Below are positions 33,710-55,596 of a stretch of DNA of 60,895 bases, piece after piece. Below the pieces are notes generated by a model. It was given only the letters and a program-made list of their open reading frames with translations. It searched no databases and was not told the DNA's origin. Within the stretch, counting starts at the first letter, position 1. The number at the start of each line of letters is the position of its first letter. Source of the DNA: Eubacterium sp. (GTDB lineage: Bacteria > Bacillota > Clostridia > Peptostreptococcales > Anaerovoracaceae); the NCBI GenBank assembly GCA_021769965.1, contig JAETRU010000015.1:1-60895 (forward strand), read 5' to 3'. Made by a program: the position numbers and the translations under genes.

Positions 33710-34366
33710 TTATCTGCCGGCAGCGCGGATGCTTTCCAGAACTGTTTCCTTTGAGCGGGAAAAATGCGCCTGCATCAGCTTTGACGCGCCTTCTGTATCA
33801 CCATCGAGAAATGTCTCTCCGATCTGGCAGTGCTCCTGACAGGTTTCCGCGTCATCCAGCAGATAATCGGCATACCGATGTGTGATGATGCCGTACAGCG
33901 AACCGGTTTTTCGGGCATTGTCAATGAGAAACGGATTTTTGGAATACTGATAAAAAATGTCGTGGAACTGGCTGGAATATCTGGTATAAGCCGCAATGTC
34001 GCTGTAATTGACAGCTTCTTTCTGGCGGGCCATATTATCAGACAGAGCCTGGCTGAGTTCTTCTGAGCGATTTTGGCCTGCGAGGGTGATAGCAAAGGAA
34101 TCCAGATTGCTGATCATGTCATAGATGTTGCCGATGACCTGTTCGTCCAGCTGGATCACGTGGGCACCGATATTGGAGATCTGGTCTACCAGTCCATCCT
34201 GCGCCAGTCTGGTGACTGCTTCACGGATCGGCGTGGAACTGGTCGCGAATTTTTCCTTTAAATTTTTCAGGGTCAGCCGTTCTCCGCAGGGGATCTTCTG
34301 GGTGATGATATCATTTTTCAGTTCTAAGTATATCTGATCGGCTAATGATAGTCTGCTGATTGGCAT
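33710..34366 (-). CDS. GntR-family regulator (FadR/FCD subgroup)
   Basis: A 218-residue regulator. The winged helix (DQIYLELKNDIITQKIPCGERLTLKNLKEKFATSSTPIREAVTRL, across residues 9-53) is followed by an all-helical FCD ligand domain (residues 75-215) with the Asp/His-type metal-binding pattern (FHDIFYQYSKNPFL, HCQIGETFLDGD). Such proteins bind an organic acid or sugar acid. It is divergent from the AGCS symporter operon and most likely controls it. AAAGGAGG precedes the ATG. Confidence 0.92.
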   Translation of the reverse strand: MPISRLSLADQIYLELKNDIITQKIPCGERLTLKNLKEKFATSSTPIREAVTRLAQDGLVDQISNIGAHVIQLDEQVIGNIYDMISNLDSFAITLAGQNRSEELSQALSDNMARQKEAVNYSDIAAYTRYSSQFHDIFYQYSKNPFLIDNARKTGSLYGIITHRYADYLLDDAETCQEHCQIGETFLDGDTEGASKLMQAHFSRSKETVLESIRAAGR

Positions 34367-34470
34367 ATGTTTACCTCCTTTGGCAGCAGGGTTTATAAGT
34401 CTAATTCTATTTTACAGGCAATGGAAGAAAAAAGCAAGCAAAAAATCAAATACAAATTGCAAAAAACATG

Positions 34471-34499
34471 TTGCAAATGTCAGATAATTATGATATGAT
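34471..34499 (+). promoter_or_regulatory. Promoter of the AGCS symporter operon
   Basis: TTGCAA (34471-34476), 17 bases, TATGAT (34494-34499). TTGCAA occurs a second time at 34457-34462, 14 bases upstream, which may be part of a GntR operator. Confidence 0.65.
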
Positions 34500-34609
34500 A
34501 GGTCATGTCAAGAGGAAATGCGATAAATTTAGTCAGGTGACTCCCGCGGAACGCAGGACTTCTCAGACAAACCGCACTCAATAGTATGTATAGTATACGG
34601 AGGTAAAAA

Positions 34610-36085
34610 ATGGATATTTATTCGATCATTGAGATGGTGGTTCAGGATTGGATCTGGGGTACGCCTCTGATCGTCATCGTACTGGCCATCGGCGTAATCT
34701 TCATGGTGGGCTCCCGGTTCTTCCCGATCAGACACTTTGGACACGTTATGAAGAACGTCATCAACAACTTAACGGGAAAAGAGGACAAAGGAGATGGAGA
34801 GAAGGGTCTGCTGTCTTCGATCCAGGCCACAGCAGTGGCTATTGGAACCACAGTGGGCGTCGGCAACATCGGCGGCGTGGCGTCCGCGATCGTCATCGGA
34901 GGACCTGGCGCGGTCTTCTGGATGTGGGTCGCCGGTTTTCTGGGCATGGGCCTGAAGATGGTAGAGATCACCCTGGCTGTTTACTATCGTTCAGAAGATC
35001 TGAACGGCGAAGTATACGGCGGTCCGAACTACTACATGAACAAAGGTCTCGGCAGGGAAATGGGATGGAAGCACATCTTCAAGATCTTCAGCTTCCTGTT
35101 CGCTTTCGGATTCTGCTTCACGTACATTGTCAGCATTCAGACCTATACGGTAGCTGAAGCAGTCGCGAACACCTTTAACTGGAGTCTGCTGGTGACAGCT
35201 ATTGTATATACGGTCATCTTATACATCATGCTTGCTGGCGGCCTGAAGGGCCTGGGCAAGACTGCCGTAGTCATGGTACCGTTCATGTGCATCTTCTATC
35301 TGCTGGGCGGCTTGTTCATCATCTTCAGAGAAGCTTCCGCGATTCCAGAATGCTTCAAGCTGATCTTTGATGGCGCGTTTAACGGCACAGCAGCATTAGG
35401 AGGCTTCGGAGGCGCAGCATTCTCCGTCGCTATTAAAACAGGTATGGCCCGTTCTGTATTCAGTAACGAAGCCGGCTGGGGTTCCGCGGCAATGGTACAC
35501 GCCACCGCGAAGGTAGACCACCCGGTCAAGCAGGGTATGTTCGGCGTATTCGAAGTATTTGTAGATACGTTCCTGATCTGTACGATCACAGCGCTGACTA
35601 TTATCATCACTGGACAGTGGTCTTCCGGACTGGACGGCGCGACCCTGACACTTTCCGCTTTCGAAGTCGGTCTGGGCTCTGTGGGCAGGATCGTTCTGGC
35701 TGTGGGTATCTTCTTCTTTGGTATCACCACTTCCACAGGCGGATACGCACAGGTAGAAGTCGTACTTCGTTACCTGCTGGGTGACAGACCGCTGAAGAAC
35801 AAGATCCTCGCATTCTATAAGTGGACGTTCCCGCTTCCATCACTGATCATGGTGGCGATCGCAGTATTCATCGGTATGCCGGGCGCATATCTGTGGCTGA
35901 TCTCCGATATGTCCACAGGACTGCCGATCTTCGCAAATCTGATCACCATTGCAGTGCTCTTCCCGACCTTCCTGAAGCTGCTGAAGGACTACAAGGCAAG
36001 ATATATGGGAATTGGTCAGATCGACCCGAATATGACAGTATTCTATGAAGATAAAGTTAGAAAAGAGAGAAAGGAGAACGCATAA
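34610..36085 (+). CDS. Sodium:alanine/glycine symporter family (AGCS) transporter
   Basis: A 491-residue membrane transporter with about 11 segments. Family marks are AIGTTVGVGNIGGVASAI (about residues 80-97), GPGAVFWMWVAGFLGMGLKMVE and RSVFSNEAGWGSAAMVHATA (about 285). The family imports alanine, glycine and small related zwitterions with Na+. It opens a five-gene operon with two small unknown proteins, an SDR and a phosphofructokinase, beside the glycyl-radical enzyme operon. It is thus a candidate importer of that pathway's substrate, which would then be an amino acid or similar compound; this is inferred. The stop overlaps the next ATG (TAATG). Confidence 0.94.
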   Translation: MDIYSIIEMVVQDWIWGTPLIVIVLAIGVIFMVGSRFFPIRHFGHVMKNVINNLTGKEDKGDGEKGLLSSIQATAVAIGTTVGVGNIGGVASAIVIGGPGAVFWMWVAGFLGMGLKMVEITLAVYYRSEDLNGEVYGGPNYYMNKGLGREMGWKHIFKIFSFLFAFGFCFTYIVSIQTYTVAEAVANTFNWSLLVTAIVYTVILYIMLAGGLKGLGKTAVVMVPFMCIFYLLGGLFIIFREASAIPECFKLIFDGAFNGTAALGGFGGAAFSVAIKTGMARSVFSNEAGWGSAAMVHATAKVDHPVKQGMFGVFEVFVDTFLICTITALTIIITGQWSSGLDGATLTLSAFEVGLGSVGRIVLAVGIFFFGITTSTGGYAQVEVVLRYLLGDRPLKNKILAFYKWTFPLPSLIMVAIAVFIGMPGAYLWLISDMSTGLPIFANLITIAVLFPTFLKLLKDYKARYMGIGQIDPNMTVFYEDKVRKERKENA

Positions 36086-36509: not shown

Positions 36510-37397
36510 ATGGAGAAAAAAGCAATCAAGGGCACATTGTTCTTAAGTGCTTACAACATCGACAGAACAAAGTTTTTAAAGTCAGGAGAGAAGATCGAAT
36601 CCTATTATCAGGAAGGATCCTCAACCTGTGACGAGAAAGGTTCCCCGCTGGACAGCTGCGCTGTATACGTTATGGGTACCAGAGTTATAGATAAGGACGG
36701 CGGGATCATGAGAGACACCCGTCTGGTCAGATTCATCGACAACAACGGCAAATGCTGGTGGATGGCAGACAGCCAGAAGGGCGCGATCGGTTCCTTCGAT
36801 TACCTGATCAAGAGCGGTACAGAAAACTGGAAATTCCTCTGCGGTTCTTTCAAAGAAGTTGAGCCGATCGTTGAGCGAAATGACGGCAGCTTCATCGTTA
36901 CGCTGGAAGGTGAATACTATTTCAACGAAGCAGAGCGTGATCTGGCTATCTACAGAAACCACGAAAAGAATTTCAAATATCACGACAAAGGATACAGCTT
37001 CCACGGACCGCACGAAGCCAATGATGAAGGTATCCTGAAGCTGAAGGACGGCAGCTATCTGGAAGTCGGCGTACAGCAGGGCGTTCTGATCAGTGAGAAC
37101 CCTGACAGCCCGAGAAGCTTTGCTACCGTTTATGACAGAGGAACTACTGTAAGAGCTGCTGACGGCACACAGCTTGGCGACGTTATGCTTCTGGAAGATG
37201 TAGACGTAGAAGGCAACATGGTCTGGCTGTATCACGAATGGTGGTATGATCCGGAAATCGAAAACGGCACCTATGACATCTTAGGCGGCACCGGCAAATG
37301 GGAAGGCATCAAAGGACAGGGCTCCGCGGTCGGACACTTATTCCACAGAAACGACGATCACTGGATGACAACCTGGGAACTGAGCTGGGATATCTAA
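36510..37397 (+). CDS. Protein of unknown function with an allene-oxide-cyclase-like barrel segment
   Basis: A 295-residue soluble protein that I do not recognise as a whole. The C-terminal part YDILGGTGKWEGIKGQGSA (about residues 250-270) resembles the FxGGTGKF.G..G turn of the allene oxide cyclase/dirigent barrel family, and it is rich in Trp and Tyr (WWMADSQ, HEWWYDPE, HWMTTWELSWD). Two halves of about 140 residues may each be a barrel. It has no signal peptide and no known metal motif. It lies between the GlcG-like gene and the SDR, so a role in binding or converting the pathway substrate is possible. Confidence 0.6.
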   Translation: MEKKAIKGTLFLSAYNIDRTKFLKSGEKIESYYQEGSSTCDEKGSPLDSCAVYVMGTRVIDKDGGIMRDTRLVRFIDNNGKCWWMADSQKGAIGSFDYLIKSGTENWKFLCGSFKEVEPIVERNDGSFIVTLEGEYYFNEAERDLAIYRNHEKNFKYHDKGYSFHGPHEANDEGILKLKDGSYLEVGVQQGVLISENPDSPRSFATVYDRGTTVRAADGTQLGDVMLLEDVDVEGNMVWLYHEWWYDPEIENGTYDILGGTGKWEGIKGQGSAVGHLFHRNDDHWMTTWELSWDI

Positions 37398-37479: not shown

Positions 37480-38226
37480 ATGAGAGTAGTCATTACGGGC
37501 GGTACCTCCGGCATGGGGAAGAGCGCCGTTAAACTGTTTTTAGAAAAAGGCTGGCAGGTCATGGCACTGGATCTCAATGAAGAGGCTGGCCAGCGGCTGT
37601 TAGACGAGATGAAGGCAGCGGGCTATGAGAATCTGTACTTCTGCAAGGCCAATGTGGCAAAAGACGCCGACGTGCGCGCGGCCTATGAAAAGACCATGGA
37701 GGTCATGGGCGGCACCGACTGCCTGATCAACAACGCGGGCATCTTTGTCGGCGGCAAGCTTCATGAAACGAAAGAAGAGGACTGGGACAGAGTTTTCAAT
37801 GTGGACGTAAAAGCTATCTATCTGACGGCAAAGTACTTTGTACCATATATGATCAAAAATGGCGGAGGATCTATCGTCAATACCGCCTCTGTTTCCGGCA
37901 TGTTCGGAGATTATGATATGGCGGCATATAACGCAGCCAAAGGCGCTGTTGTCAATCTGGTCAAAGCTATGGCACTGGATTACGGCAAGTACGGGATCCG
38001 TGTCAATAATGTATGCCCGGCAGCCTGCGCAACACCGATGTTTCTTGCTAATCCACCTGAGGTCGTAGAACAGTTCAACCAGGCCAATCCGCTGGGAAGA
38101 ATCTGCACACCTGATGAGATCGCTAAAGCCATGTACTTCCTGGCCGTGGATGCTGTCTCCTGCAACGGCGTAAATCTGGAAGTGACCGGCGGTCTGAACA
38201 TTCACACCGGACAGCCAGTACAGTAA
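37480..38226 (+). CDS. Short-chain dehydrogenase/reductase (SDR)
   Basis: A 248-residue classical SDR. Cofactor motif TGGTSGMGKSAV (residues 6-17) with Asp following in ALDLNEE, which favours NAD(H); NNAG at about residue 86; catalytic Ser in NTASVSG and YNAAK. Classical SDRs of this kind oxidise sugar alcohols, hydroxy acids or hydroxylated amino acids. It is the fourth gene of the AGCS operon, six bases before pfk, and would be the first or second oxidation step of the imported compound. Substrate not shown. Confidence 0.92.
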   Translation: MRVVITGGTSGMGKSAVKLFLEKGWQVMALDLNEEAGQRLLDEMKAAGYENLYFCKANVAKDADVRAAYEKTMEVMGGTDCLINNAGIFVGGKLHETKEEDWDRVFNVDVKAIYLTAKYFVPYMIKNGGGSIVNTASVSGMFGDYDMAAYNAAKGAVVNLVKAMALDYGKYGIRVNNVCPAACATPMFLANPPEVVEQFNQANPLGRICTPDEIAKAMYFLAVDAVSCNGVNLEVTGGLNIHTGQPVQ

Positions 38227-38231: not shown

Positions 38232-39194
38232 ATGAAAAGAATCGGCGTATTGACCAGCGGCGGAGATTCTCCGGGCATGAACGCGGCGATCCGTACAGTG
38301 ACCCGCTGCGGCATAGAGGCAGGCATGGAAGTCTACGGCATTTACCGAGGCTACGAGGGTCTGCTGGATGGAGAGATCCGTCAGATGGACAGAACTTCAG
38401 TAGGAGACATTCTGCATCGGGGAGGCACCATGCTGAAGACTGCCCGAAGCGAGATATTCCCTACAGAGGAAGGACAGCGGCGGGCGATAAATATGCTGGA
38501 GACCTTTGGGATTGAAGGTCTTGTGGTCATCGGCGGAGACGGCTCTCTGCGGGGAGGCGCTGCTTTGTCAGAAGGAGGCGTCAAAGTTATGGGCCTGCCC
38601 GGTACCATAGACAACGATCTGGGGTATACGGATTTTACTATAGGTTTTGACACGGCGGTCAGCACGGTGCTGGACGCCATCGCCAGGATCCGCGATACCT
38701 CATCTTCCCATGAACGGACTACCGTCATCGAGGTCATGGGACGGCACTGCGGGGACATCGCCCTGTACGCCGGACTGGCCGGCGGGGCGGAAGCCGTTTT
38801 GATCCCTGAGATCGAGTATGATGTCAATGAGCTCTGCAGGAAGATCGTCATGGGCGCCAACCGGGGCAAACAGCACAGCATCATCATCAAAGCGGAGGGG
38901 GTCGGGATATCCTCTCAGGTTCTGACAGAGATCATAGAGAAAAAGACCGGGAAGGAGCCGCGGCTGGCCGTTTTGTCCTATCTGCAGAGAGGCGGCAGTC
39001 CTACGTTCCGTGACCGCATGCTGGCGACCCGGACCGGCGCGAAGGCAGTGGAGCTGCTGCAGGGGGATTCCTCCAGCAAAGCCATCGGTACGATCAATGG
39101 TCAGATCGTAGCCTGCGATCTGAAGGAGGCTGTATGCCAGAAACGAGAAATAGACAGAGAAATGTACGACCTTATCGGCATTTTGAGCAAATAG
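38232..39194 (+). CDS. pfkA: ATP-dependent 6-phosphofructokinase
   Basis: A 320-residue PFK. GVLTSGGDSPGMNAAIR binds ATP, GGDGSLRGG has Gly after GGDG (the ATP-type residue, not the PPi-type Asp), and GTIDNDLGYTDFTIGFDTA includes the catalytic Asp. FLQRGGSPT appears here as YLQRGGSPT. Length is normal. Its place in a catabolic operon under GntR control, next to a class II aldolase and transketolase in the nearby operon, suggests it phosphorylates a ketose or sugar made in this pathway, in place of or beside its glycolytic role. Confidence 0.93.
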   Translation: MKRIGVLTSGGDSPGMNAAIRTVTRCGIEAGMEVYGIYRGYEGLLDGEIRQMDRTSVGDILHRGGTMLKTARSEIFPTEEGQRRAINMLETFGIEGLVVIGGDGSLRGGAALSEGGVKVMGLPGTIDNDLGYTDFTIGFDTAVSTVLDAIARIRDTSSSHERTTVIEVMGRHCGDIALYAGLAGGAEAVLIPEIEYDVNELCRKIVMGANRGKQHSIIIKAEGVGISSQVLTEIIEKKTGKEPRLAVLSYLQRGGSPTFRDRMLATRTGAKAVELLQGDSSSKAIGTINGQIVACDLKEAVCQKREIDREMYDLIGILSK

Positions 39195-39246: not shown

Positions 39247-39257
39247 AGGTTTTACAC

Positions 39258-39286
39258 TTGACGACAATGTAAAATGCGTTTATAAT
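39258..39286 (+). promoter_or_regulatory. Promoter of the glycyl-radical enzyme operon
   Basis: TTGACG (39258-39263), 17 bases, TATAAT (39281-39286). The start would fall just before the direct repeats at 39300. Confidence 0.8.
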
Positions 39287-39407: not shown

Positions 39408-41765
39408 ATGATAAAGTTAACAGAAAAAATGAAGAAATTAGAAGACAGGCTGTTCAATGTGGAATACCTGGATCCGGGGAAGTGGTACTTTGCCGACGTG
39501 AATATACTGGATATCGAAGGAAACGATATTCTGCGCAGGGAGCCTATGGTCGTTCGGAAGGCTTACGCCCATCAGTATATCTGTCACAACCTGCCTGTGG
39601 TGATCAAAGCTGATGAGCTGATCGTAGGATGTCCCAATCAGAACAGTGTGGGGTGGGGCAGCACCATTCCCAAGTACTTTGATCGGGAGGAAGAGGAACT
39701 GGCAGCAAAGCACGAACTGAATGAGAGCTCCATCTGGGGGCATCATCCCCCTGCCTTTGATAAGATCATCGACGGCGGTATCATCGGCGTAAAGGGTGAG
39801 GTGGAGGAAGCGCTGAAGGCGGAACTGGAAAAAAGGGAACCTGATCAGCTGTCCATCGACGAATACCGGGCCATGCTCATCGCGTTGGACGGTGTGGCTG
39901 ATTACGCCAGAAGGTACGCGGACGAAGCACTTCGCCTGGCCTGTGTCTGTGATGATGAACAGAGAAAGGCGGAGCTGATGCAGATCTATGAGAACTGTAA
40001 ACGAGTCCCTCTGTTACCGGCGGAAACACTGCAGCAGGCAGCGCAGTCCTACTGGCTGGTCTACTCCGTAGTCAACAGCGGCGGCGAATTCATTCCTCTC
40101 GGCAGAGCGGATCAGTACCTGTATCCGTACTATCAGCGGGATATGGATGCCGGCAGGATCGCAGAGGAGGACGCGTATAACATCATCGCAAGCTTTCTGG
40201 TCAAATGCAACGAGAGAATTGTTCTGGATACAAAGAAGGCGGAAAATCACTACACTTTTGGACTGTTCTCTCAGGGCGTGGTCTTTGATGAGGAAGCAAA
40301 AGAGAGCAATATCAACGGGACCGGAGGCTTCGCGCAGCGAAGCCTGACCTGGCAGGAGAATGAGGACGTAAACAGTGAGGCGAACTACAACTACGGTCAG
40401 TCGGGCAATGACTGGCTGATGAACTGTATGGTTGGCGGCGTTCACGCTGACGGCACCGATGCTACCAACAAGATCTCCTATATGTTTGTGGAGATCATGG
40501 ACGCCATGCATCTCCTGATGCCGACGCTGGGGGCCAGAATACATGACGATACGCCGGAAAGCTTTCTGCGGCTGCTGGCAGAAGTTCTCCGCTATGGGCA
40601 GGGGGAGCCGATCATTTATAATGACAGAACTATCATTCCGGGATTTGTGGATCTAGGCATTCCACTGGAGGAGGCCAGAGATTACTGCAGTGACGGCTGC
40701 TGGGAGACCCTGATCCCGGGAAAGAGCCATTTCAGCTATGCTCATATTATGAACCTGCAGTGTCTGGAGTGGACGCTGCACCGCGGCGTCACTGTAAAGA
40801 CTGGAGCGCAGGACGGCCTGGATACGGGAGATCCTCTTGCATTCGCCTCCTTTGAAGACTTCTATCAGGCATACAGGTGCCAGGTGGACGCGCAGATCGA
40901 TTTCCAGTGCGCGAGAAGAATCGAAAATCTGGGACTGTCCTATATGATCGCGCCGGATCCGCTGTTCTCCTCCATAACAAAAGACTGCGTCAAAAATGGC
41001 CGCGATATCAGTCAGGATGGCGCCAGATATATTTTCCATATGATTCTGGTCACCGGTCTGGCGGACACGGTGGATTCTCTGACTGTTATCAAAAAACTGG
41101 TTTTCGAGGAAAAAACAGTGACCATGGAAGAACTGATCGCTGCCATGGACGCCGGCTGGAAAGGATACGAGCGGCTTCGCGCCATGGTGCAGAATACGGT
41201 ACCGAAGTTCGGCAATGATGAGGATTATGTAGATGACATCGCCGTCAGACTGCTGAAAGACTTTGAGGAAAAGGTGCAGACATGGAAGAACCGCCATGAG
41301 AAAGTGCTGTTCCCGTGCGGTATCGGGACCTTTGAAAACTATGCTGTGCTGGGCAGAGATACGGCAGCAACGCCTAACGGACGCGCTGACTGGGATCCGC
41401 TGGCGCCGAACTATTCGCCGGTGGCGGGGGCTGACCTTAATGGACCGACATCCGTGATGAAGAGCATTTCCAAGCCGGATCTGCGGCGGTTTTATGCGGG
41501 AACGCCGGTGGATATCGCGGTCAACTCCAATGAGTTCAGCGGTGATGCCGGTGTGGAGCGGCTGAAGGATCTTATCGAAGCTTTCTGTGAGCTGGGCGGT
41601 CAGGTCATGACCATTACCAGCACCAGTGTGGAGGATCTGAAGGACGCAAAGGAGCATCCGGAGCGGCACAGAGATCTGCGGGTGAGAATGGGCGGACTGT
41701 CCGCTTACTTTATTGCTATGGCGCCGGTGCAGCAGGATAATATCATCCGGCGGTTTTCCAGGTAG
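39408..41765 (+). CDS. Glycyl-radical enzyme of unassigned substrate (PFL/diol-dehydratase-like)
   Basis: A 785-residue glycyl-radical enzyme. The thiyl cysteine is Cys431 in DGCWETLIPGK with the usual Glu two residues on. The radical glycine is Gly763 in RMGGLSAYF, 22 residues from the end, where the family normally has RVxGYxxxF. After PGK the sequence runs SHFSYAHIMNLQCLEW and lacks the GWHDxxFFN of choline lyase and glycerol/propanediol dehydratases, so neither of those activities can be given. The activase follows 4 bases later. ATG 39408 has a GAAAGGAGG site; the frame is open to 39336 but without one. In this setting it may dehydrate, deaminate or split a polyol, sugar acid or amino alcohol. 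No microcompartment genes are present. Confidence 0.92.
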   Translation: MIKLTEKMKKLEDRLFNVEYLDPGKWYFADVNILDIEGNDILRREPMVVRKAYAHQYICHNLPVVIKADELIVGCPNQNSVGWGSTIPKYFDREEEELAAKHELNESSIWGHHPPAFDKIIDGGIIGVKGEVEEALKAELEKREPDQLSIDEYRAMLIALDGVADYARRYADEALRLACVCDDEQRKAELMQIYENCKRVPLLPAETLQQAAQSYWLVYSVVNSGGEFIPLGRADQYLYPYYQRDMDAGRIAEEDAYNIIASFLVKCNERIVLDTKKAENHYTFGLFSQGVVFDEEAKESNINGTGGFAQRSLTWQENEDVNSEANYNYGQSGNDWLMNCMVGGVHADGTDATNKISYMFVEIMDAMHLLMPTLGARIHDDTPESFLRLLAEVLRYGQGEPIIYNDRTIIPGFVDLGIPLEEARDYCSDGCWETLIPGKSHFSYAHIMNLQCLEWTLHRGVTVKTGAQDGLDTGDPLAFASFEDFYQAYRCQVDAQIDFQCARRIENLGLSYMIAPDPLFSSITKDCVKNGRDISQDGARYIFHMILVTGLADTVDSLTVIKKLVFEEKTVTMEELIAAMDAGWKGYERLRAMVQNTVPKFGNDEDYVDDIAVRLLKDFEEKVQTWKNRHEKVLFPCGIGTFENYAVLGRDTAATPNGRADWDPLAPNYSPVAGADLNGPTSVMKSISKPDLRRFYAGTPVDIAVNSNEFSGDAGVERLKDLIEAFCELGGQVMTITSTSVEDLKDAKEHPERHRDLRVRMGGLSAYFIAMAPVQQDNIIRRFSR

Positions 41766-42702: not shown

Positions 42703-43139
42703 AGGATTTATGCTTTGGCCTGCATCATGTGGGGATCTATACCCATGATCTGAAGGCCAGCGAAGCGTTTTACAGGGATATTTTCGGATTTGAGATTCTG
42801 TATCACATTGACGGAGGCGAGGAAGGGGAGCCTGACATCACCTTTATCGCGAAGGACGGTCTGCAGATCGAGCTGGTGCAGCCGAAAGAGGAAGCTCTCA
42901 GGGCAGCCGCGCAGGCTATGAACTGTCTGAACCACATCGCCATCGCTTGCAGCGATACGCGGGCTGCCGTCACGGTTTTGAAAGAAAAGGGCGTCTCTCT
43001 GGAGACGGAAGCGGCGCAGTACGTCCGGGACTTCGGCGCGCCGGGACAAGATATCGATATCATATTTTTACGGGGGCCTGCCGGCGAGCGGATCGAGCTC
43101 TATCAGGAGTTATCAGCAGGCAGCGGCGACGTACAATAG
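42699..43139 (+). CDS. VOC-family protein (glyoxalase/epimerase-like)
   Basis: A 146-residue vicinal-oxygen-chelate protein. LHHVGIYTHDLKASEAFYRDIFGFE gives the N-terminal metal His, LNHIAIACSDTRAAV the second His, and ERIELYQ the terminal Glu. The likely metal set is His, Glu, His, Glu as in methylmalonyl-CoA epimerase and glyoxalase I. It could epimerise or isomerise an intermediate made by the glycyl-radical enzyme. It is coupled to the activase gene by overlap and precedes the PF03928-type gene by 9 bases. Confidence 0.88.
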   Translation: MKDLCFGLHHVGIYTHDLKASEAFYRDIFGFEILYHIDGGEEGEPDITFIAKDGLQIELVQPKEEALRAAAQAMNCLNHIAIACSDTRAAVTVLKEKGVSLETEAAQYVRDFGAPGQDIDIIFLRGPAGERIELYQELSAGSGDVQ

Positions 43140-47478: not shown

Positions 47479-48333
47479 ATGAATCAGAAAGAGTTGAACA
47501 TCTTTGCGGCAAGGATACGCAAGGCCGCTCTGCGGGCCATGCGTAATGCAGGCGCCGGCCATGTGGGCGGTTCCATGTCTATGGCGGATCTGATGGCCGT
47601 ATTATACGGAGACGTGATGAAGATCGACCCGAAGAACCCGAAATGGGAGGAAAGAGACTGGCTGGTGATATCCAAAGGCCACTGCGGTCCCGCTGTATAC
47701 GGCGCTTTGGCTTTGCGGGGATATTTTGATGAATCGGAACTGGATACGGTAAATCAGGGAGGAACCAGACTGCCGAGCCACTGTGATATGAACCTGACTC
47801 CGGGAATAGACATGAGTACCGGTTCTCTGGGACAGGGCATGTCTACCGCTATCGGCGCAGCCTGGGGCAGCCGCTATCAGGGCAGAGACAATTATACCTA
47901 TCTGGTTCTGGGCGACGGAGAGACCAACGAAGGCCAGGTATGGGAAGGCGCTCTCTTCGCTGCCCAGCAGAAGCTGGATCACCTCATCGCTTTTATCGAT
48001 TACAACAAGAAGCAGCTGGACGGTTATACTGCCGACATCTGCGATATCGGCGACGTTCGGCAGAAGTTCGAAGATTTCGGCTGGGACGCCCGGGAGTGTG
48101 ACGGTCACGATGTGGAGGCTGTCAAAACGGCCATCGAAAAGGCAAAGGCGGTTTCAGGCAAGCCTCATGTCGTCGTGCTGAACACCGTTAAAGGAAAGGA
48201 CTGTTCCTTTGCGGAAGGGGTCCTGTACAACCACCATATGAAATTCAAGCCGGAGGATTATCAGGCAGCCCAAGAGGCGCTGGACGCGAAGATCGAGCAG
48301 ACAGAGAAGGAGGACTCGTCATGTATCAGGTAG
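47479..48333 (+). CDS. Transketolase, N-terminal subunit
   Basis: A 284-residue N-terminal half of a split transketolase, TPP-binding. GAGHVGGSMSMADLMAVLY, SKGHCGPAVYGAL, the TPP motif GDGETNEGQVWEGALFAAQQKLDHLIAFIDYNKKQLDG (GDG to N about 27 residues, positions 154-182). Transketolases move two-carbon ketol units between sugars. The split form is usual in clostridia. It overlaps the C-terminal subunit gene by 13 bases. In this operon it would recycle the sugar part of the substrate, or make a ketose for the aldolase. Confidence 0.95.
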   Translation: MNQKELNIFAARIRKAALRAMRNAGAGHVGGSMSMADLMAVLYGDVMKIDPKNPKWEERDWLVISKGHCGPAVYGALALRGYFDESELDTVNQGGTRLPSHCDMNLTPGIDMSTGSLGQGMSTAIGAAWGSRYQGRDNYTYLVLGDGETNEGQVWEGALFAAQQKLDHLIAFIDYNKKQLDGYTADICDIGDVRQKFEDFGWDARECDGHDVEAVKTAIEKAKAVSGKPHVVVLNTVKGKDCSFAEGVLYNHHMKFKPEDYQAAQEALDAKIEQTEKEDSSCIR

Positions 48334-49289
48334 AAGAAAGAATCACACAGGAAGCCCGGGAAATGCGGGCGGTCTTTGCAAAGGTCATCGCTGACATGGC
48401 AGAGAAGGACAGCCGGGTCATTTATCTGGACTGCGATCTGATGAACAGCATCGGCATGGCGGGCTACTGGAAGGAACATCCGGAACGGGCTGTCAACTGC
48501 GGCATCCAGGAGGCCAATATGATCGGAACCGCAGCAGGCATGTCAGCCACGGGACTGATCCCGTTCACCCACACCTTCGGCACTTTCGCAACGCGGAGAG
48601 TCATGGACCAGATCTTCGTATCGGCGGCCTACGCCAGACTCAACGTGAAGATCATCGGCTCTGATCCGGGCATCACAGCCACTCTTAACGGCGGTACTCA
48701 CATGCCGCTGGAGGATATCGGCATGATGCGGTGTATTCCGGAGGTCACCATCGTGGAACCTGCGGACTCCGTCATGCTGGAGGATATGTTGCGGCAGGCA
48801 AAGGACACATACGGCGTATTCTATATCCGGCTTTCCCGTAAAATTGCGGAAAAGATATACAAAGACGGTTCCACCTTTGAGATCGGAAAGGCTGCAAAGC
48901 TGCGGGAAGGAAAAGACGCTGCGATCTTTGCTACCGGTATCTGCGTCGCGGAAGCCCTTCGGGCAGCGGAGATTCTGGCTGCAGAAGGCATTGACGCAGC
49001 TGTTTCCAACATGTTCACCATAAAACCTGTGGACAGAGAGGCAGTCATCGAAGCGGCAAGGAGCACCGGCGCCATCGTGACGGCGGAAAACCACAATATC
49101 ATCAACGGCCTGGGCTCTGCTGTAGCGGAAGTCCTGGCGGAAAACGTCTGCTGCCCGATGGAGCGTATCGGCGCCAAAGACCGGTTCGGCGAGGTAGGCG
49201 ACATGGATTATCTGAAAAAAGCCATGGGCATGAGAGCCGAGGACATTGCGGCAGCAGTCAGAAGAGTCGTTGAGAGAAAGGGGAAATAA
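48321..49289 (+). CDS. Transketolase, C-terminal subunit
   Basis: A 322-residue C-terminal half containing the pyrimidine-binding and C-terminal domains. It has VINCGIQEANMIGTAAGMSATGL, the His in THTFGTFATRR, and GTHMPLEDIGMMRCIP. The ATG 48321 lies inside the N-terminal gene with an AGAAGGAGG site in that gene's last codons, so the halves are made in equal amounts. A transketolase set inside a pathway operon, not with pentose-phosphate genes, is a hint that a sugar or ketose is an intermediate. Confidence 0.95.
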   Translation: MYQVEERITQEAREMRAVFAKVIADMAEKDSRVIYLDCDLMNSIGMAGYWKEHPERAVNCGIQEANMIGTAAGMSATGLIPFTHTFGTFATRRVMDQIFVSAAYARLNVKIIGSDPGITATLNGGTHMPLEDIGMMRCIPEVTIVEPADSVMLEDMLRQAKDTYGVFYIRLSRKIAEKIYKDGSTFEIGKAAKLREGKDAAIFATGICVAEALRAAEILAAEGIDAAVSNMFTIKPVDREAVIEAARSTGAIVTAENHNIINGLGSAVAEVLAENVCCPMERIGAKDRFGEVGDMDYLKKAMGMRAEDIAAAVRRVVERKGK

Positions 49290-49290
49290 G

Positions 49291-50313
49291 ATGAAAGCGG
49301 CAGTTATTGAAGAGAAAAACAGCCTCCATCTGCGGGAAGTGGAAAAGCCGGTCCTGCAGGACGGAGAGGCATTGATCAAAGTCAGATACTGCGGTATCTG
49401 CGGCAGCGACATCCACGTTCTGCGCGGGGAGCACGCTACGGCGAAATTTCCGGTGATTCCCGGTCATGAGTTCGTAGGAGAGCTGGTGGACATCAAAGGC
49501 AGCGGCAGCCAGCGCTATGAGATCGGCGATTACGTGGTAGCACAGCCGTTTTTCTCCTGCGGCAACTGTGAGCCGTGCGCGAAAGGAGAGGACAACGTCT
49601 GTGCCGACCTGCGCTTTATGGGCGCCCATACCGACGGAGGCTTTGCTCAGTACGTCAAAGTAGCCACCCGCAAGATGTACAGGATACCGAAGGACATGGA
49701 TCTTAAACTGGCGGCTTTGACCGAGCCGGTCGCTGTAGCTGTTCACGATGTCAGAAAGAGCGGCCTTCAGGTGGGAGAAACGGCTCTGATCATCGGCGGA
49801 GGCCCCATCGGTATGCTTATCGCTATGGTTGCGCGTCACGCGGGAGCTAGACAGGTGGTCATCTCCGAGATCAGCGCCTACCGCAGAAAAGTGGCTGAGG
49901 ATCTGGGATTCATCACTGTGGATCCTACAGACAGCTGCTTCGACCAGTCCATCGCCGCATTGACCGAAGGGAAAGGCTTTGACGTCTGCTTCGAAGTGTC
50001 GGGCACCAAGCCGGGCATCGCCACAGCCGTGGAGGAAGCCAGGATCACCGGCACTATCGTGGTGGTGGGCATGACCAGGGAGCCTCACCCTGTGGATCTG
50101 GCGGCGGTGTTCGCCAAGGAACTGACCATCAAAGGCGTCCGCATCCACGCCCAGTACAGTTTCATCGGCGCCATAGAGCTGCTGAAGGAGGGCTCCCTGA
50201 ATGAAGAATTCGAAGCCATGATCAGCAGGGTGTTCCCGCTGGAGGAAGTGGAAGAAGCGTTTGCTTTCGCGCAGGTTCCGGGAGACTATTTCAAAGTTTT
50301 AATCGAAATGTAG
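49291..50313 (+). CDS. Zinc-dependent alcohol dehydrogenase (threonine/sorbitol dehydrogenase type)
   Basis: A 340-residue medium-chain dehydrogenase. Catalytic zinc: Cys in RYCGICGSDIH, His-Glu in IPGHEFVGEL. Structural zinc: CGNCEPCAKGEDNVC. NAD site: ALIIGGGPIGMLIAMVARHAGA, followed by EISAYRR. These enzymes oxidise polyols or amino-alcohols such as sorbitol, threonine or 2,3-butanediol. ATG 49291 has an AAAGGGG site; the longer open frame lies within the transketolase gene. Likely step: oxidation of a polyol intermediate to a ketose. Confidence 0.93.
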   Translation: MKAAVIEEKNSLHLREVEKPVLQDGEALIKVRYCGICGSDIHVLRGEHATAKFPVIPGHEFVGELVDIKGSGSQRYEIGDYVVAQPFFSCGNCEPCAKGEDNVCADLRFMGAHTDGGFAQYVKVATRKMYRIPKDMDLKLAALTEPVAVAVHDVRKSGLQVGETALIIGGGPIGMLIAMVARHAGARQVVISEISAYRRKVAEDLGFITVDPTDSCFDQSIAALTEGKGFDVCFEVSGTKPGIATAVEEARITGTIVVVGMTREPHPVDLAAVFAKELTIKGVRIHAQYSFIGAIELLKEGSLNEEFEAMISRVFPLEEVEEAFAFAQVPGDYFKVLIEM

Positions 50314-50328: not shown

Positions 50329-51828
50329 ATGAAAAAGTTCAAATTATTCATCGGCAATCAGTGGGTCGACGCCGAGGGCGGCAAGACTTTTGTTACGTAT
50401 AATCCATGCACGGGAGAACCGATCGCGGAGATGGCCTGCGGCAGTGCGGCGGACACAGAGAAGGCCATTGCGGCAGCCGACGCGGCGTTCCGCTCAGGAT
50501 GCTGGTCCGGTCTGGACGCTGACGAGAGAGCCGCCTATCTGCTGAAAGCAGCTGACATTCTGGAAAGCCGTCTGGAAGAGTTTGCCCGCTATGAGGCGAT
50601 GGATACAGGAAAGCCGATCAGCGAGACCCGTTCCATCGACATTCCTCTGGCCGTCCGCGCTTTCCGCTTCCACGCAGATTCTGTCAAAGCATTGACCGGC
50701 AAGGTCATCACCGTGCCGGGCCATCAGCAGTTCTGCTATACCTCCTATGAACCTTACGGCGTCGTAGGCAGCATTGCGCCGTGGAACTTTCCGCTGCATC
50801 TGCTGACCCGGTCTATCGGCGCGGCTCTGGCAGCAGGCAATACGGTGGTATGCAAGGCGGCAACTCTGACGCCGGTGACCAGTCAGATGCTGGGTGAGGT
50901 CTTCCTGGAAGCGGGCGTACCGGCCGGTGTATATAATGTAGTTTCCGGTTCCGGCGGCGTAGTCGGCGAAGCGCTTCTGGCTTCCGAAAAGGTCAGCATG
51001 GTGGCGCTGACAGGCAGCGAAGCCGTGGGCAGGCGGCTGATGGAAGCCTCCGCGCAGTCCCCGCGGATCAAACCTCTGTCCCTGGAGCTGGGTGGAAAGA
51101 GCCCGATCATCGTGGAGCCGGACTGCGACATGGACGGCGCGCTGAATTCAGCGATTCTCGGCTTCTGCATGAACCAGGGCGAGGTCTGTGTATCAACTTC
51201 AAGACTGCTGCTTGCTGACGAGATCTACGACGAATTTCTGGAAAAGATGGTTGCGCGTCTTTCCAGGATCAGGATCGGCGACTGTCTCAGCGAGGATACC
51301 CAGATGGGCTCCCTGATCAGCGAAGAACACCTGCGGACTGTACAGGGTTTTGTAGACCGCGCGGAAGCCCAGGGCGCAAAGATCCGCTGCGGCGGAAGCC
51401 GACTGACCGGGGGAGACTACGACAAAGGTTTCTATTATCCGCCGACTGTCATCGAAAACGTGACGCCGGACATGGAGATCTTCCAGGAGGAGGTCTTCGG
51501 ACCTGTGCTGTCTGTGACCAGATACAGCACATTGGACGAAGCCATCGAGCTGGCCAACAACACCCGCTTCGGTCTGGGCGCGGCCATCTTTACAGAGAAC
51601 ATCCGCAAGATGTACTGGACGGCAGAAAAGCTGGACGCAGGCACCGTATGGATGAACTGCTCTACCAAGTCAAACATCGAGACACCGTTCGGCGGCAACA
51701 AGAACAGCGGACTGGGCAGAGAAGACGGCGTAGAAGGCCTGCTGGAATATATGAAGGTAAAGAATCACATCTGGTTCATGGGGCCGGATTACGACAATCC
51801 ATATGGTTTTGAAGATGAATATAAATAA
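50329..51828 (+). CDS. Aldehyde dehydrogenase (NAD-dependent)
   Basis: A 499-residue aldehyde dehydrogenase of the betaine/4-aminobutyraldehyde/succinate-semialdehyde type. Active-site Cys287 in NQGEVCVSTSR, general base Glu253 in SLELGGKSP, and VVGSIAPWNFPL for the cofactor. It makes a free acid, since there is no CoA-acylating motif. It may oxidise the same aldehyde that the iron dehydrogenase reduces, balancing redox, as in succinate semialdehyde metabolism. A good GAAAAGGAG site precedes the ATG. Confidence 0.94.
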   Translation: MKKFKLFIGNQWVDAEGGKTFVTYNPCTGEPIAEMACGSAADTEKAIAAADAAFRSGCWSGLDADERAAYLLKAADILESRLEEFARYEAMDTGKPISETRSIDIPLAVRAFRFHADSVKALTGKVITVPGHQQFCYTSYEPYGVVGSIAPWNFPLHLLTRSIGAALAAGNTVVCKAATLTPVTSQMLGEVFLEAGVPAGVYNVVSGSGGVVGEALLASEKVSMVALTGSEAVGRRLMEASAQSPRIKPLSLELGGKSPIIVEPDCDMDGALNSAILGFCMNQGEVCVSTSRLLLADEIYDEFLEKMVARLSRIRIGDCLSEDTQMGSLISEEHLRTVQGFVDRAEAQGAKIRCGGSRLTGGDYDKGFYYPPTVIENVTPDMEIFQEEVFGPVLSVTRYSTLDEAIELANNTRFGLGAAIFTENIRKMYWTAEKLDAGTVWMNCSTKSNIETPFGGNKNSGLGREDGVEGLLEYMKVKNHIWFMGPDYDNPYGFEDEYK

Positions 51829-51842: not shown

Positions 51843-53294
51843 ATGGCGATGATGACAGGCGAGCAGTATGTGGAGAGCATGCGAAAGATGGACCTGCAGG
51901 TATATATGTTCGGTAAGAAGGTGGAAAATCCGGTGGACCATCCGATCCTCCGGCCTTCTCTCAATTCGGTGAAGGCCACTTACGATCTGGCTCAGGAACC
52001 GGAATACGAGGATCTGATGACAGCCAGATCCGTCTTTACCGGAGAGAAGGTCAACCGTTTTCTGCATATTCATCAGAGCACAGAGGATCTGATGAAAAAG
52101 GTGAAGATGCAGAGACTGCTGGGACAGCAGACTGCGGCCTGCTTCCAGAGATGCGTGGGTATGGACGCTTTTAACGCGGTATACAGCACGACCTACGAGA
52201 TCGACGAGAAATACGGCACGCGCTACCACGAGAACTTTAAGAAATACGCTGCCTACTGCGAGGAACACGACTTTACTGTAGACGGGGCCATGACGGATCC
52301 GAAGGGCGACAGAGGACTGGCACCGCATGCCCAGGAGGATCCGGACATGTATCTGCGGGTGGTGGAGCGCCGCCCTGATGGTATCGTAGTGCGGGGCGCG
52401 AAGGCCCATCAGACCGGTGCCATCAATTCTCAGGAGATGATCGTCATGCCGACGGTGGCCATGGGACCGGATGATAAGGATTACGCTGTATCCTTCGCCG
52501 TACCGACCGACGCGGAAGGGATCATCATGATCATCGGCAGACAGTCCTGTGACACCAGGAAACTGGAAGAGTCTCAGATAGATGTAGGAAACAGCCAGTT
52601 CGGCGGCGTGGAGGCTCTGGTGATCTTCAACGACGTCTTTGTACCAAACGAAAGAATCTTCCTGGACGGCGAGACAGAGTTCGCAGGCATGCTGGTAGAG
52701 CGGTTCGCCGGCTATCACAGACAGAGCTACGGCGGCTGCAAGGTCGGCGTCGGAGACGTTTTGATCGGCGCGGCTGCAGTGGCGGCAGATTACAACGGCT
52801 GCGCCCGCGCTTCCCATATCAAAGACAAGCTCATCGAGATGATCCATCTGAATGAAACGCTGTACGGCTGCGGCATCGCCTGCTCTGCGGAGGGACACAA
52901 AACCGCGTCGGGCAATTACATCATCGACCTGTTATTAGCCAATGTGTGCAAGCAGAACGTGACCCGCTTCCCGTATGAGATCGCCCGCTTGGCAGAGGAC
53001 ATTGCAGGAGGCATTGTGGTCACGGCACCGTCTGAGGCAGACCTGCGTGATCCTGTGATCGGGCCGTACGTGGAAAAATATCTGAAAGCTGCCAAAGATG
53101 TGACTGTAGAAAACAGGCTGCGGATCCTGCGTCTCATTGAAAATCTGTGCCTGGGAACAGCGGCGGTAGGCTACCGGACGGAATCTCTGCACGGCGCGGG
53201 CAGTCCGCAGGCGCAGCGGATCATGATCTCACGCCAGGGCAATCTGCCGAGGAAGAAAGAACTGGCGAAGAGGATCGCTAAAGTAGAAGAGTAG
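51843..53294 (+). CDS. abfD: 4-hydroxybutyryl-CoA dehydratase / vinylacetyl-CoA isomerase
   Basis: A 483-residue flavin and [4Fe-4S] enzyme that removes water from 4-hydroxybutyryl-CoA by a ketyl-radical route and isomerises vinylacetyl-CoA to crotonyl-CoA. The four cluster ligands of the Clostridium aminobutyricum enzyme are present: Cys100 and Cys104 in TAACFQRCVG, and His292 and Cys299 in YHRQSYGGC (Cys99, Cys103, His292, Cys299 in that enzyme). The AMTDPKGDRG stretch of the 4-hydroxyphenylacetate hydroxylase superfamily is also present. Thus it is the dehydratase and not a hydroxylase. It is followed 18 bases later by the matching CoA-transferase, so the operon ends in crotonyl-CoA. Confidence 0.96.
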   Translation: MAMMTGEQYVESMRKMDLQVYMFGKKVENPVDHPILRPSLNSVKATYDLAQEPEYEDLMTARSVFTGEKVNRFLHIHQSTEDLMKKVKMQRLLGQQTAACFQRCVGMDAFNAVYSTTYEIDEKYGTRYHENFKKYAAYCEEHDFTVDGAMTDPKGDRGLAPHAQEDPDMYLRVVERRPDGIVVRGAKAHQTGAINSQEMIVMPTVAMGPDDKDYAVSFAVPTDAEGIIMIIGRQSCDTRKLEESQIDVGNSQFGGVEALVIFNDVFVPNERIFLDGETEFAGMLVERFAGYHRQSYGGCKVGVGDVLIGAAAVAADYNGCARASHIKDKLIEMIHLNETLYGCGIACSAEGHKTASGNYIIDLLLANVCKQNVTRFPYEIARLAEDIAGGIVVTAPSEADLRDPVIGPYVEKYLKAAKDVTVENRLRILRLIENLCLGTAAVGYRTESLHGAGSPQAQRIMISRQGNLPRKKELAKRIAKVEE

Positions 53295-53312
53295 AATCGG
53301 AGGAAGCAATAT

Positions 53313-54611
53313 ATGGAATGGAAAAAGATCTATGACAAGCGGAAACGAACGGCAGAGGAAGCGATCCGCATGATCCACTCCGGAGATCGGGTGGTCCTGG
53401 GTCACGCGGTGGGGATTCCCATCGTGTTGACCGACGCCCTGGCAGAACACAAGGAAGACTATGTGGACGTAGAACTGATTCAGATGTTTCCCCTGGGCAA
53501 CGCCCGATTTGCCGAACCGGACATGGAGGGCCACTTCCGGCTGAACACCCTGTTCGTGGGCGGCCTGACCAAAGGCGCGGTCAGAGATGGCAGGGCTGAC
53601 TTTACGCCATGCAACTTTCACGAGACGCCGAAGCTGTTTGACGAACTGCTGGGCGTGGATGTAGCGGTAATCCAGGTGACACCGCCGGATAAGCACGGCT
53701 ATGTCAGCTGTGGTGTTTCCGTGGATTATACCCTGCCTGCGGCAAAACAGGCCAGGCGGATCATCGCCCAGGTCAACAGCCAGATGCCGAGGACTTTGGG
53801 AGATACCGCGCTTCACGTATCGGAGATAGACTGCTTCGTAGAGGCGGAGCACGCAGTCATCGAGCTGCCTTCGCCAAATATCGGCGAGGTGGAAAAGGCC
53901 ATCGGCGAAAACTGCGCCAGACTGATCCGGGACGGCGATACGCTGCAGCTGGGCATTGGCGCGATTCCAGACGCGGTGCTGCTGTTCCTGAAGGAAAAGC
54001 GGGATCTGGGTATTCATTCAGAGATGATCTCTGACGGCGTGGTAGAGCTTATCGAAGAGGGCGTCATCACCAATGCGAAGAAAAATCTGCACCCGGGAAA
54101 GACAGTGGTCACCTTTCTGATGGGATCCAGAAGACTGTATGATTATGTGGACGACAACCCGTCGGTAGCCATGTATCCGGTCAGTTATGTCAACGACCCT
54201 TATGTGGTAGGGCAGAATGACAATCTGGTATCTATCAATTCCTGCATACAGGTAGATCTGATGGGTCAGATCGCCTCAGAAAGCGTGGGTATGACACAGA
54301 TCAGCGGAACAGGCGGTCAGGTGGATTTTGTCAGAGGGGCAAAGCTGAGCAAGGGAGGCCGTTCTATTATGGCGATCCCTTCTACGGCATCTCAGGGAAG
54401 AGTTTCCAAGATCGTGCCGATCCTGGATGAGGGAGCGGCGGTGACCACCCTTCGTACCGACGTGGACTATGTGGTCACGGAATACGGCGTCGCCCGGCTG
54501 CGCGGAAAAAATCTGCGGGATCGGGCCAAGGCGCTGATCGATGTGGCGCATCCGAAATTCAGGCCGGGCCTGATCGAAGAGTACAGCAGAAGATTTCACT
54601 GTGTGTATTGA
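53313..54611 (+). CDS. abfT: 4-hydroxybutyrate CoA-transferase (acetyl-CoA hydrolase/transferase family)
   Basis: A 432-residue CoA-transferase that moves CoA from acetyl-CoA or butyryl-CoA to 4-hydroxybutyrate. The catalytic Glu is Glu237 in GIHSEMISDG, matching Glu238 of the C. aminobutyricum enzyme. The stretches TPPDKHGYVSCGVSVDYT, LQLGIGAIPDAVL and GTGGQVDFVRGA are all family-typical. It supplies substrate to the dehydratase next to it. A GGAGGAAG site lies before the ATG. Assignment to 4-hydroxybutyrate rests on the neighbour as well as on the sequence. Confidence 0.92.
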   Translation: MEWKKIYDKRKRTAEEAIRMIHSGDRVVLGHAVGIPIVLTDALAEHKEDYVDVELIQMFPLGNARFAEPDMEGHFRLNTLFVGGLTKGAVRDGRADFTPCNFHETPKLFDELLGVDVAVIQVTPPDKHGYVSCGVSVDYTLPAAKQARRIIAQVNSQMPRTLGDTALHVSEIDCFVEAEHAVIELPSPNIGEVEKAIGENCARLIRDGDTLQLGIGAIPDAVLLFLKEKRDLGIHSEMISDGVVELIEEGVITNAKKNLHPGKTVVTFLMGSRRLYDYVDDNPSVAMYPVSYVNDPYVVGQNDNLVSINSCIQVDLMGQIASESVGMTQISGTGGQVDFVRGAKLSKGGRSIMAIPSTASQGRVSKIVPILDEGAAVTTLRTDVDYVVTEYGVARLRGKNLRDRAKALIDVAHPKFRPGLIEEYSRRFHCVY

Positions 54612-54660
54612 GTGTATATCGTCTGCATAATAGATTGTGTAATGCGACAGGAGATAAAAA

Positions 54661-55596
54661 ATGAGTTTAGTTACAACGAAAGAGATGTTTCGGAAGGCTT
54701 ACGATGGCGGTTACGCTGTCGGCGCCTTTAACGTCAACAATATGGAGATCATACAGGGAATTACAGAGGCGGCAGGCGAACTGCGCTCGCCGCTGATCCT
54801 GCAGGTCTCCGCAGGTGCCAGAAAGTATGCCAATCATACCTATCTGACCGGGCTTGTGGAGGCTGCGCTGATAGAAAACGATATTCCCATCGCCCTTCAT
54901 CTGGATCACGGCGCAGACTTTGAGATCTGCAGGTCCTGTATCGACGGAGGATTTACTTCCGTCATGATCGACGCCTCCAGACTGCCTTTTGAAGAAAATA
55001 TCGCGCTTACCAGGCAGGTGGCAGAGTACGCCCATGAGAGAGGCGTCGTCGTAGAAGCGGAGCTGGGACAGCTTTCCGGCGTGGAGGACGACGTCAATGT
55101 GTCAGCCGAAGACGCGGCTTACACGCATCCAGATGAGGTAGAGGAATTTGTCAGCCGCACCGGCGTAGATTCGCTGGCCATCGCCATCGGTACCAGCCAC
55201 GGCGCTTTCAAGTTCAAGCCCGGTCAAAAGCCGCAGCTCCGCTTCGATATTCTGGAGGAAATCGCGAGAAGAATCCCTGGTTTTCCTATCGTTCTTCACG
55301 GCGCGTCCTCTGTATCCCCGGAGTATGTAAAGATCATTCAGGAAAACGGCGGCAATTTAGCTGACGCCATCGGGATCCCGGAGGATATGCTTCGTCAGGC
55401 GGCAAAATCCGCTGTGTGCAAGATCAATATCGACTCCGACCTGCGCCTGGCTATGACCGCGGGCGTCCGCCAGGTCCTGTATAACGATCCTTCCGTCTTC
55501 GATCCGCGAGAGTATCTGAAAGCGGGACGCGCCAATGTCAAAGCGCTGGTAGCGCACAAGATCGTCAACGTGCTGGGCAGCAACGGAAAAGCGTAA
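54661..55596 (+). CDS. Class II fructose-bisphosphate aldolase family protein
   Basis: A 311-residue zinc aldolase. It has AVGAFNVNNMEIIQGI, the zinc His in ALHLDHGADFE, VEAELGQLSGVEDDV, IGTSHGAFKF and LHGASSVSPEY, and the phosphate-binding KINIDSDLR. It splits ketose-1-phosphates or ketose bisphosphates; the FbaA, GatY/KbaY and IolJ groups cannot be told apart here. With a phosphofructokinase in the first operon it would form a kinase-aldolase pair. It is last in the operon, 49 bases after the CoA-transferase. Confidence 0.93.
   Translation: MSLVTTKEMFRKAYDGGYAVGAFNVNNMEIIQGITEAAGELRSPLILQVSAGARKYANHTYLTGLVEAALIENDIPIALHLDHGADFEICRSCIDGGFTSVMIDASRLPFEENIALTRQVAEYAHERGVVVEAELGQLSGVEDDVNVSAEDAAYTHPDEVEEFVSRTGVDSLAIAIGTSHGAFKFKPGQKPQLRFDILEEIARRIPGFPIVLHGASSVSPEYVKIIQENGGNLADAIGIPEDMLRQAAKSAVCKINIDSDLRLAMTAGVRQVLYNDPSVFDPREYLKAGRANVKALVAHKIVNVLGSNGKA

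Follow-up and report, generated by a model that had tools for sequence, protein, structure and literature searches.

The contig JAETRU010000015.1 of Eubacterium sp. (assembly GCA_021769965.1; 60,895 nucleotides, analysed whole and called the window here) carries, between positions 33710 and 55596, operons that bring together a glycyl-radical enzyme (GRE), a split transketolase, several dehydrogenases and 4-hydroxybutyryl-CoA dehydratase (AbfD). The genome comprises 2.99 Mb in 82 contigs. With confidence just short of even, we propose that this regulon ferments a sugar, a sugar acid or a cyclitol by way of an acidic ketose and a C4 diol, on which the GRE would act, to crotonyl-CoA. Gene content and order, conservation in other genomes, an operator and the family identities, that of AbfD among them, were observed for the proposed regulon and are given first. 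If true, the proposal would extend the glycyl-radical diol dehydratases to a new class of substrate and provide a further way of reaching butyrate, one that is new. All the enzymes involved are of known kinds; what appears to be new is the clade of the GRE and the way in which they are combined.

A Glycyl-radical Enzyme outside the Named Families

Judged by its sequence, the enzyme is a PFL-like glycyl-radical enzyme, with a PFL-like domain (Pfam PF02901, 467 bits), a glycine-radical domain (PF01228, 61 bits), the catalytic cysteine, a glycyl loop and a dedicated activase. The motif C455-W-E457 and residue G787 (809-residue numbering) were located, C455 and G787 being invariant across 11 aligned rows. 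It nevertheless passes none of the named NCBIfam families CutC, HypD, HpsG/HpfG, PFL and the indoleacetate and hydroxyphenylacetate decarboxylases, scoring 401 of the 1050 bits required for CutC, 401 of 1100 for HypD, 388 of 1000 for HpsG and 91 of 994 for PFL, while two other GREs of the same genome exceed the HypD and PFL cut-offs. The sulfopropanediol dehydratase models place it far under their cut-off and no isethionate-lyase model was matched.

A preliminary description of this DNA knew of no described glycyl-radical pathway with this gene set and would have counted a firm place of the GRE in a clade of known substrate, unrelated to C4 products, as a refutation. The result favours the description: the enzyme falls in a 13-row clade with support of 100/100, within which its nine transketolase-type rows also group at 100/100 (the partial L019 and L022 were omitted, the root is a midpoint root and branches outside the clade are long). 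On this placement the GRE belongs to a deep, unassigned clade. It resembles CutC, HypD and the glycerol and propanediol dehydratases in its PFL-like fold, C-x-E motif, glycyl loop and PFL2-type activase, and differs from them in its own clade, an insert of ~50 residues (about 300-353) and its CWE and GHH motifs. Comparing its alignment columns with those of HypD from the same genome did not settle the substrate, and an AlphaFold model was left unused (mean predicted local distance difference test score of 69.4, with values below 50 at 295-362 and 457-466, in the insert and near the catalytic motif).

The outer branch of the clade (L020, L021, L035 and L036; 37-41% identity) comes from Planctomycetes and two family genomes, and no transketolase was matched in the stretches available for these four. 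The source genome holds three more GREs (L002, L004 and L005) just under the generic PFL2-3 cut-off and in no named family.

Conservation of the GRE Locus

At E 1e-100 the GRE was matched in 5 of 247 family genomes including its own, two at 59-60% and two at 38-39% identity, and among 398 phylum genomes only in its own. Among named genomes, a scan detected 20 GRE loci, eight of them close kin (L013-L019 and L022; 61-70% in the best segment). Together with L033, L034 and the window these form the set of 11 genomes, from Clostridia and Planctomycetes, to which the following counts refer; L019 and L105, two contigs of one genome whose join is presumed, count as one locus, and contig ends restrict several of the numbers.

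A Zn-dependent dehydrogenase (ZnADH) occurs in all 11 loci, its open reading frame (ORF) sharing 4 bases with that of the GRE in L034. The split transketolase is present in nine, the exceptions being L017, a 7.7-kb contig, and L034, in whose genome the sole close copy sits in an inositol cluster (L061). An aldehyde sink was found in 10: Fe-dependent alcohol dehydrogenase (FeADH; at least 68%, five loci), aldehyde dehydrogenase (ALDH; at least 73%, five loci) or aldehyde:ferredoxin oxidoreductase (AOR; four loci, L013, L014, L015 and L033). AbfD is carried by four (the window, L013, L016 and, as a 58-residue piece at the contig end, L105), and shares one operon with FeADH and the CoA-transferase AbfT in the first three. 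Less constant are the Gfo/Idh oxidoreductase (5/11), the SDR dehydrogenase (3/11 at no less than 72%, the L015 and L033 copies being 72-74% identical) and the VOC protein (3/11, copies of 43% adjoining AbfT in L013 and L016); dehydrogenases of the polyol type (SDR, Gfo/Idh and ZnADH) number as many as three in a single locus, as in the window, L104 and L033. Transporters vary, with a ribose-type ABC system in L014 (proteins tested), L015, L033 and L034 (by similarity), while L017 (above cut-off) and L022 have a sodium:solute symporter, and the AGCS symporter is found in the window but in no other GRE locus mapped. The co-occurrence that the preliminary description proposed to look for is thus found, the GRE recurring elsewhere with the FeADH, transketolase, ZnADH and AbfD set and the operator described below being common to several loci, and because the set recurs in other genomes it exceeds a chance grouping.

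In the transketolase tree the GRE-linked enzymes of Clostridia and Planctomycetes group together (eight rows, 100/99; 90/79 when L033 is added). A separate nine-row group (89/94) holds inositol-linked copies, although three of its rows (L111, L112 and L115) have no iolD in view. Two of the AOR loci also hold cofactor genes of the molybdopterin type, namely MoaC, MoaA, MOSC, MogA-like and MoeA in L015/L104 and ThiS and ThiF in L013.

A Predicted Operator in the GRE Loci

The motif ATTGTNNACAAT was derived from palindromes between GntR genes and the adjacent operons in L013 and L034. Exact copies number 12 in the 233,636 bases of 13 GRE-locus stretches, one of which is the window, whereas 40 dinucleotide shuffles gave 0.42 on average and 2 at most. 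In L013 the GRE has an exact copy before it, and so has the FeADH-transketolase-ZnADH-AbfD operon; in the window, exact copies at 32350 and 46277 precede the MFS transporter gene and the FeADH operon, and the GRE promoter has an operator-like stretch matching at 8 of 10 positions (39256-39269). The copy at 7634 of L016 lies more than 2 kb away from the GRE operon. Only exact copies are counted here because scanning the entire window with a less strict 14-base pattern did no better than chance (26 matches against 24.8).

This predicted GntR-type operator may link the operons of the GRE loci. The preliminary description had treated the three operons of the window as one locus; the GRE does occur with the transketolase and AbfD elsewhere, whereas the operon furthest left, which holds AGCS, the two ORFs of no family, SDR and 6-phosphofructokinase, is tied in more weakly, since it has its own GntR gene, no exact operator (none was found before AGCS) and a symporter that among the loci mapped is peculiar to the window. 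The MFS gene may belong to the regulon, which would then extend further left.

The Predicted 4-Hydroxybutyryl-CoA Branch

The best solved relative of AbfD is 1u8v, the dehydratase/isomerase of the 4-aminobutyrate (GABA) pathway (E 1.6e-240), and the stretches CFQRC and HRQSYGGC, whose residues we take to be the cluster ligands, are aligned and kept. The earlier identification as 4-hydroxybutyryl-CoA dehydratase is secure at the level of sequence. That of its neighbour as 4-hydroxybutyrate CoA-transferase stands in part: it is a CoA-transferase, matched generically, but the specific family is missed (TIGR03948, 339 bits against a cut-off of 674.8). In having an AbfD near 1u8v with FeADH and a CoA-transferase adjoining, the branch is like the fermentation of 4-aminobutyrate and succinate via 4-hydroxybutyrate, and it differs in that it would be fed by the transketolase and GRE module. 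Another FeADH-AbfT-AbfD cluster (L129) lies elsewhere in the source genome. In a different genome, the AbfDs of the GRE operon (L016) and of an inositol operon (L058) are 98% identical, an identity that we read as a recent copy or exchange.

Proposed Pathway

The kind of entry substrate and all of the reactions are proposals from genomic context. The SDR and Gfo/Idh dehydrogenases would produce an acidic ketose such as HOCH2-CO-CHOH-CHOH-CH2-COOH, from which the split transketolase would transfer the top two carbons to a sugar phosphate, freeing 3-hydroxy-4-oxobutanoate (malate semialdehyde). ZnADH would reduce this to 3,4-dihydroxybutyrate, a GRE substrate that follows from the transketolase logic, and the GRE, as a diol dehydratase, would convert it to succinate semialdehyde. 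FeADH, the CoA-transferase and AbfD could then lead to crotonyl-CoA; where AbfD is absent, the aldehyde might be taken by ALDH or AOR. The pentose phosphate would be processed by the extra 6-phosphofructokinase and aldolase. Each of these two enzymes has a second copy in the genome (two in all), so those at 38232-39194 and 54661-55596 need not be housekeeping enzymes.

Inositol Operons with Sister Transketolases

Sisters of the GRE-linked transketolases occur in operons with inositol genes. Eight of the 11 GRE genomes have iolD above cut-off, against 17 of 247 family genomes (an unmatched control); iolB is above cut-off in two, weaker copies elsewhere adjoining iolD, and iolC is found in three. 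A transketolase half lies within reach of iolD in five of the eight iolD-positive GRE genomes (L053, L056, L058, L061 and L077) and in one of 15 other iolD-positive family genomes (L099; 20 stretches mapped, seven of them with iolC). With TkN and TkC for the transketolase halves, the gene orders are iolD-iolB-FeADH-AbfT-AbfD-TkN, then the contig end, in L058; iolD-iolB-FeADH-AbfT and a piece of AbfD in L060; TkN-TkC-AbfD-AbfT-crotonase-acyl-CoA reductase-EtfB-EtfA-FeADH-iolC-iolD-iolB in L077+L054; and iolD-iolB-phosphoglycerate kinase-malic enzyme-malate racemase-glyceraldehyde-3-phosphate dehydrogenase-TkN-TkC-crotonase-reductase-EtfB-EtfA-FeADH in L061+L081. One metagenome-assembled genome (MAG), labelled Intestinibacillus massiliensis, has both the GRE cluster with AbfD (L013) and, in L053, iolD at a distance of ~3 kb from a sister transketolase pair. 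Genome G196 has an iolD-transketolase operon and no GRE match at E 1e-100.

2-Deoxy-5-keto-gluconate, the product of IolB, would be the ketose common to the iol pathway and the route proposed here, and if transketolase leaves 3-hydroxy-4-oxobutanoate, it would be the parent ketose. Malic enzyme, phosphoglycerate kinase and glyceraldehyde-3-phosphate dehydrogenase stand beside the transketolase pair in L099 also, together with a LarA-type racemase (11521-12777). With 565.8 bits against 500, the racemase of L061 (4676-5926) exceeds the cut-off for nickel-dependent malate racemase, and the malic enzyme of L061 is under the cut-off of its model (417 against 1178). This set may serve the oxidation of malate semialdehyde with a gain of ATP, and it fits the needs of that compound or of malate made from it. 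Together with the sister transketolases beside iolD and iolB, some of them with AbfD and AbfT, it supports the proposed chemistry. In both operons the glyceraldehyde-3-phosphate dehydrogenase is of type II.

The iolD/iolB operons with split transketolase, AbfT/AbfD or both are candidate genes for the conversion of myo-inositol to butyrate, possibly without a GRE. One possible GRE-free route, through 3,4-dihydroxybutyryl-CoA, crotonase, enoyl reductase and AbfD, fits L077+L054. According to a 2025 review (PMC12482443), certain gut bacteria including Dysosmobacter welbionis and Intestinibacillus massiliensis make butyrate from myo-inositol (unpublished data) by a pathway that is incompletely characterised; the operons above supply candidate genes for it. 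Tentatively, and with a good deal of doubt, we suggest that transketolase, C4-diol dehydration by the GRE and the branch through 4-hydroxybutyryl-CoA together make up a fermentation of sugar acids or cyclitols to butyrate that is so far undescribed and, with the sister operons (iolD-iolB-transketolase-AbfT-AbfD), give the Intestinibacillus-type route from myo-inositol to butyrate.

An uninterrupted series of genes in a MAG labelled Epulopiscium (L108:1-11916) comprises crotonase, acyl-CoA reductase, EtfB, EtfA, the transketolase pair, FeADH, AbfD and AbfT, with no iolD in view there.

Weight of the Evidence and Alternatives

Several findings weigh against these proposals. The count of the operator motif came after its discovery in L013 and L034, seven of its 12 copies lying elsewhere, and six of the 13 GRE stretches (L120, L017, L018, L019, L022 and L033) have no exact copy. 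Ten inositol or transketolase stretches have none in 143,463 bases, which says little by itself because 0.42 would be expected there too; as these lack the exact operator and their transketolases belong to another group, the substrate of the inositol operons may differ. The source genome is without iolD (best 225.6 bits against 715) and without an iolB match at 1e-3, which weakens most the simple inositol reading and places the genome outside the myo-inositol (iol) pathway. In L054 the set of iolC, crotonase and acryloyl-CoA-reductase-like enzymes fits the known propionate route. Finally, in 7 of the 11 GRE loci the mapped stretch holds no AbfD, so that the GRE product of these need not be succinate semialdehyde. 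AbfD is also frequent among genomes of the family (116 of 247), a background for which its presence in 10 of the 11 GRE genomes was dropped as evidence. An identification of the GRE operon with the inositol pathway is weakened by the absent iolD and iolB, by the want of the exact operator in the inositol operons and by the grouping of their transketolases apart; we propose instead that the substrate of the GRE regulon is an acidic sugar or cyclitol akin to, but not the same as, that of the inositol operons, and that the two routes merge into the same end.

The loci without AbfD, several of which have ALDH or AOR, also suit a tetronate route, in which the ketose would be a plain 5-keto-hexonate, reduction of the transketolase product would give threonate or erythronate, the GRE would form 2-hydroxy-4-oxobutanoate and ALDH or AOR would oxidise that to malate, AbfD in its four loci having some other use. 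The SDR matches gluconate 5-dehydrogenase models, though far below cut-off. We consider this route unlikely, since AbfD, AbfT and FeADH are co-operonic in the window, L013 and L016, AbfD stands at the L105 contig end and 2,4-dihydroxybutyryl-CoA is not known to serve AbfD as a substrate. Equally improbable is a route in which the GRE acts first and dehydroxylates a C6 acid or cyclitol, dehydrogenases shift the keto group to C5 and transketolase frees succinate semialdehyde directly. Loss of water from a hexose or inositol would give the formula required of the ketose, and loci with up to three polyol-type dehydrogenases would provide for the shift, but SDR and Gfo/Idh are inconstant where ZnADH is constant. 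Least probable is that the GRE operon handles an amino-acid-like substrate imported by AGCS, a family that typically carries amino acids, beside a separate FeADH-transketolase-AbfD pathway: the GntR gene of the left operon and its want of an exact operator, the 8/10 match at the GRE promoter and the hint of more than one signal in one IclR and two GntR genes are outweighed by the joint occurrence of GRE and transketolase in nine of the 11 genomes, where the transporters are sugar-type ABC systems or sodium symporters in place of AGCS, and by the exact operator on both operons in L013.

Relation to Known Pathways

The sulfo-transketolase pathway of sulfoquinovose has a split transketolase, SqwGH, followed by the GRE isethionate sulfite-lyase. 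The proposed route is alike in that a two-part transketolase would shorten an acidic-ended sugar and a dehydrogenase and a GRE would act on the short product. It differs in that the acidic group is taken to be a carboxylate, the GRE is far below the cut-offs of the sulfopropanediol dehydratase models and the product would feed AbfT and AbfD; no sulfonate-specific GRE was found in the locus. To the myo-inositol iol genes and the inositol-to-propionate route of Anaerostipes it is related through the sister transketolases beside iolD/iolB, and it is set apart by the lack of these genes in its own genome, a butyrate rather than propionate branch and inositol operons without the exact operator. Among the matches listed in the open-access literature (subscription papers and preprints lay outside the scope) there was no description of the gene set.

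Gene Inventory of the Window

All genes named in the preliminary description are in place with open ORFs, and their families are backed by hidden Markov models (HMMs). Table I adds two ORFs, an HbpS-like protein and the neighbouring MFS gene. An NCBIfam search at 1e-30 gave no match for the Gfo/Idh/MocA oxidoreductase. The GRE probably starts at ATG 39408, preceded by AAAGGAGG, rather than at 39336, and the activase probably at ATG 41770. For GntR/FCD regulator 2 the start is probably internal, because the domain match begins only at residue 49.

TABLE I. Positions of features of the proposed regulon in the window
Feature	Position	Strand	Basis or remark
Operator AATTGTTGACAATT, exact, palindromic, 5' of MFS gene	32350-32363	.	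Exact motif match
MFS transporter, left of the range 33710-55596	32425-33642	+	Pfam MFS_1, 150.8 bits; operator upstream
GntR/FCD regulator 1	33710-34366	-	HMM
AGCS cation symporter	34610-36085	+	TIGR00835, 369 bits, above cut-off
Two ORFs, 133 and 295 residues	36085-36486 and 36510-37397	+	No Pfam family; between AGCS and SDR; absent from preliminary description
SDR dehydrogenase	37480-38226	+	Nearest model BudC, 248 bits, under cut-off of 270
6-Phosphofructokinase	38232-39194	+	TIGR02482, 380.2 against cut-off of 371.35
Promoter-like site 5' of GRE	39258-39286	+	11/12 match
Glycyl-radical enzyme	39408-41765	+	HMM; start revised
GRE activase, radical SAM	41770-42702	+	TIGR02494, 333.8 against cut-off of 174.35
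VOC/glyoxalase-like protein	42699-43139	+	HMM
HbpS-like protein	43149-43646	+	HMM; absent from preliminary description
Gfo/Idh/MocA oxidoreductase	43643-44665	+	Pfam, 69.2 bits against 24
IclR regulator	44724-45467	-	HMM
GntR/FCD regulator 2	45506-46288	-	HMM; kept in GRE loci
Operator AATTGTCGACAATC, core exact	46277-46290	.	Inside promoter-like 46273-46302
FeADH	46344-47456	+	HMM
Split transketolase	47479-49289 (N half 47479-48333, C half 48321-49289)	+	HMM
ZnADH	49246-50313	+	HMM; homology from ~49291
ALDH	50329-51828	+	HMM
AbfD	51843-53294	+	HMM; relation to 1u8v
CoA-transferase, AbfT-like	53313-54611	+	HMM
Class II fructose-bisphosphate aldolase	54661-55596	+	TIGR01859, 362.4 against cut-off of 343.05

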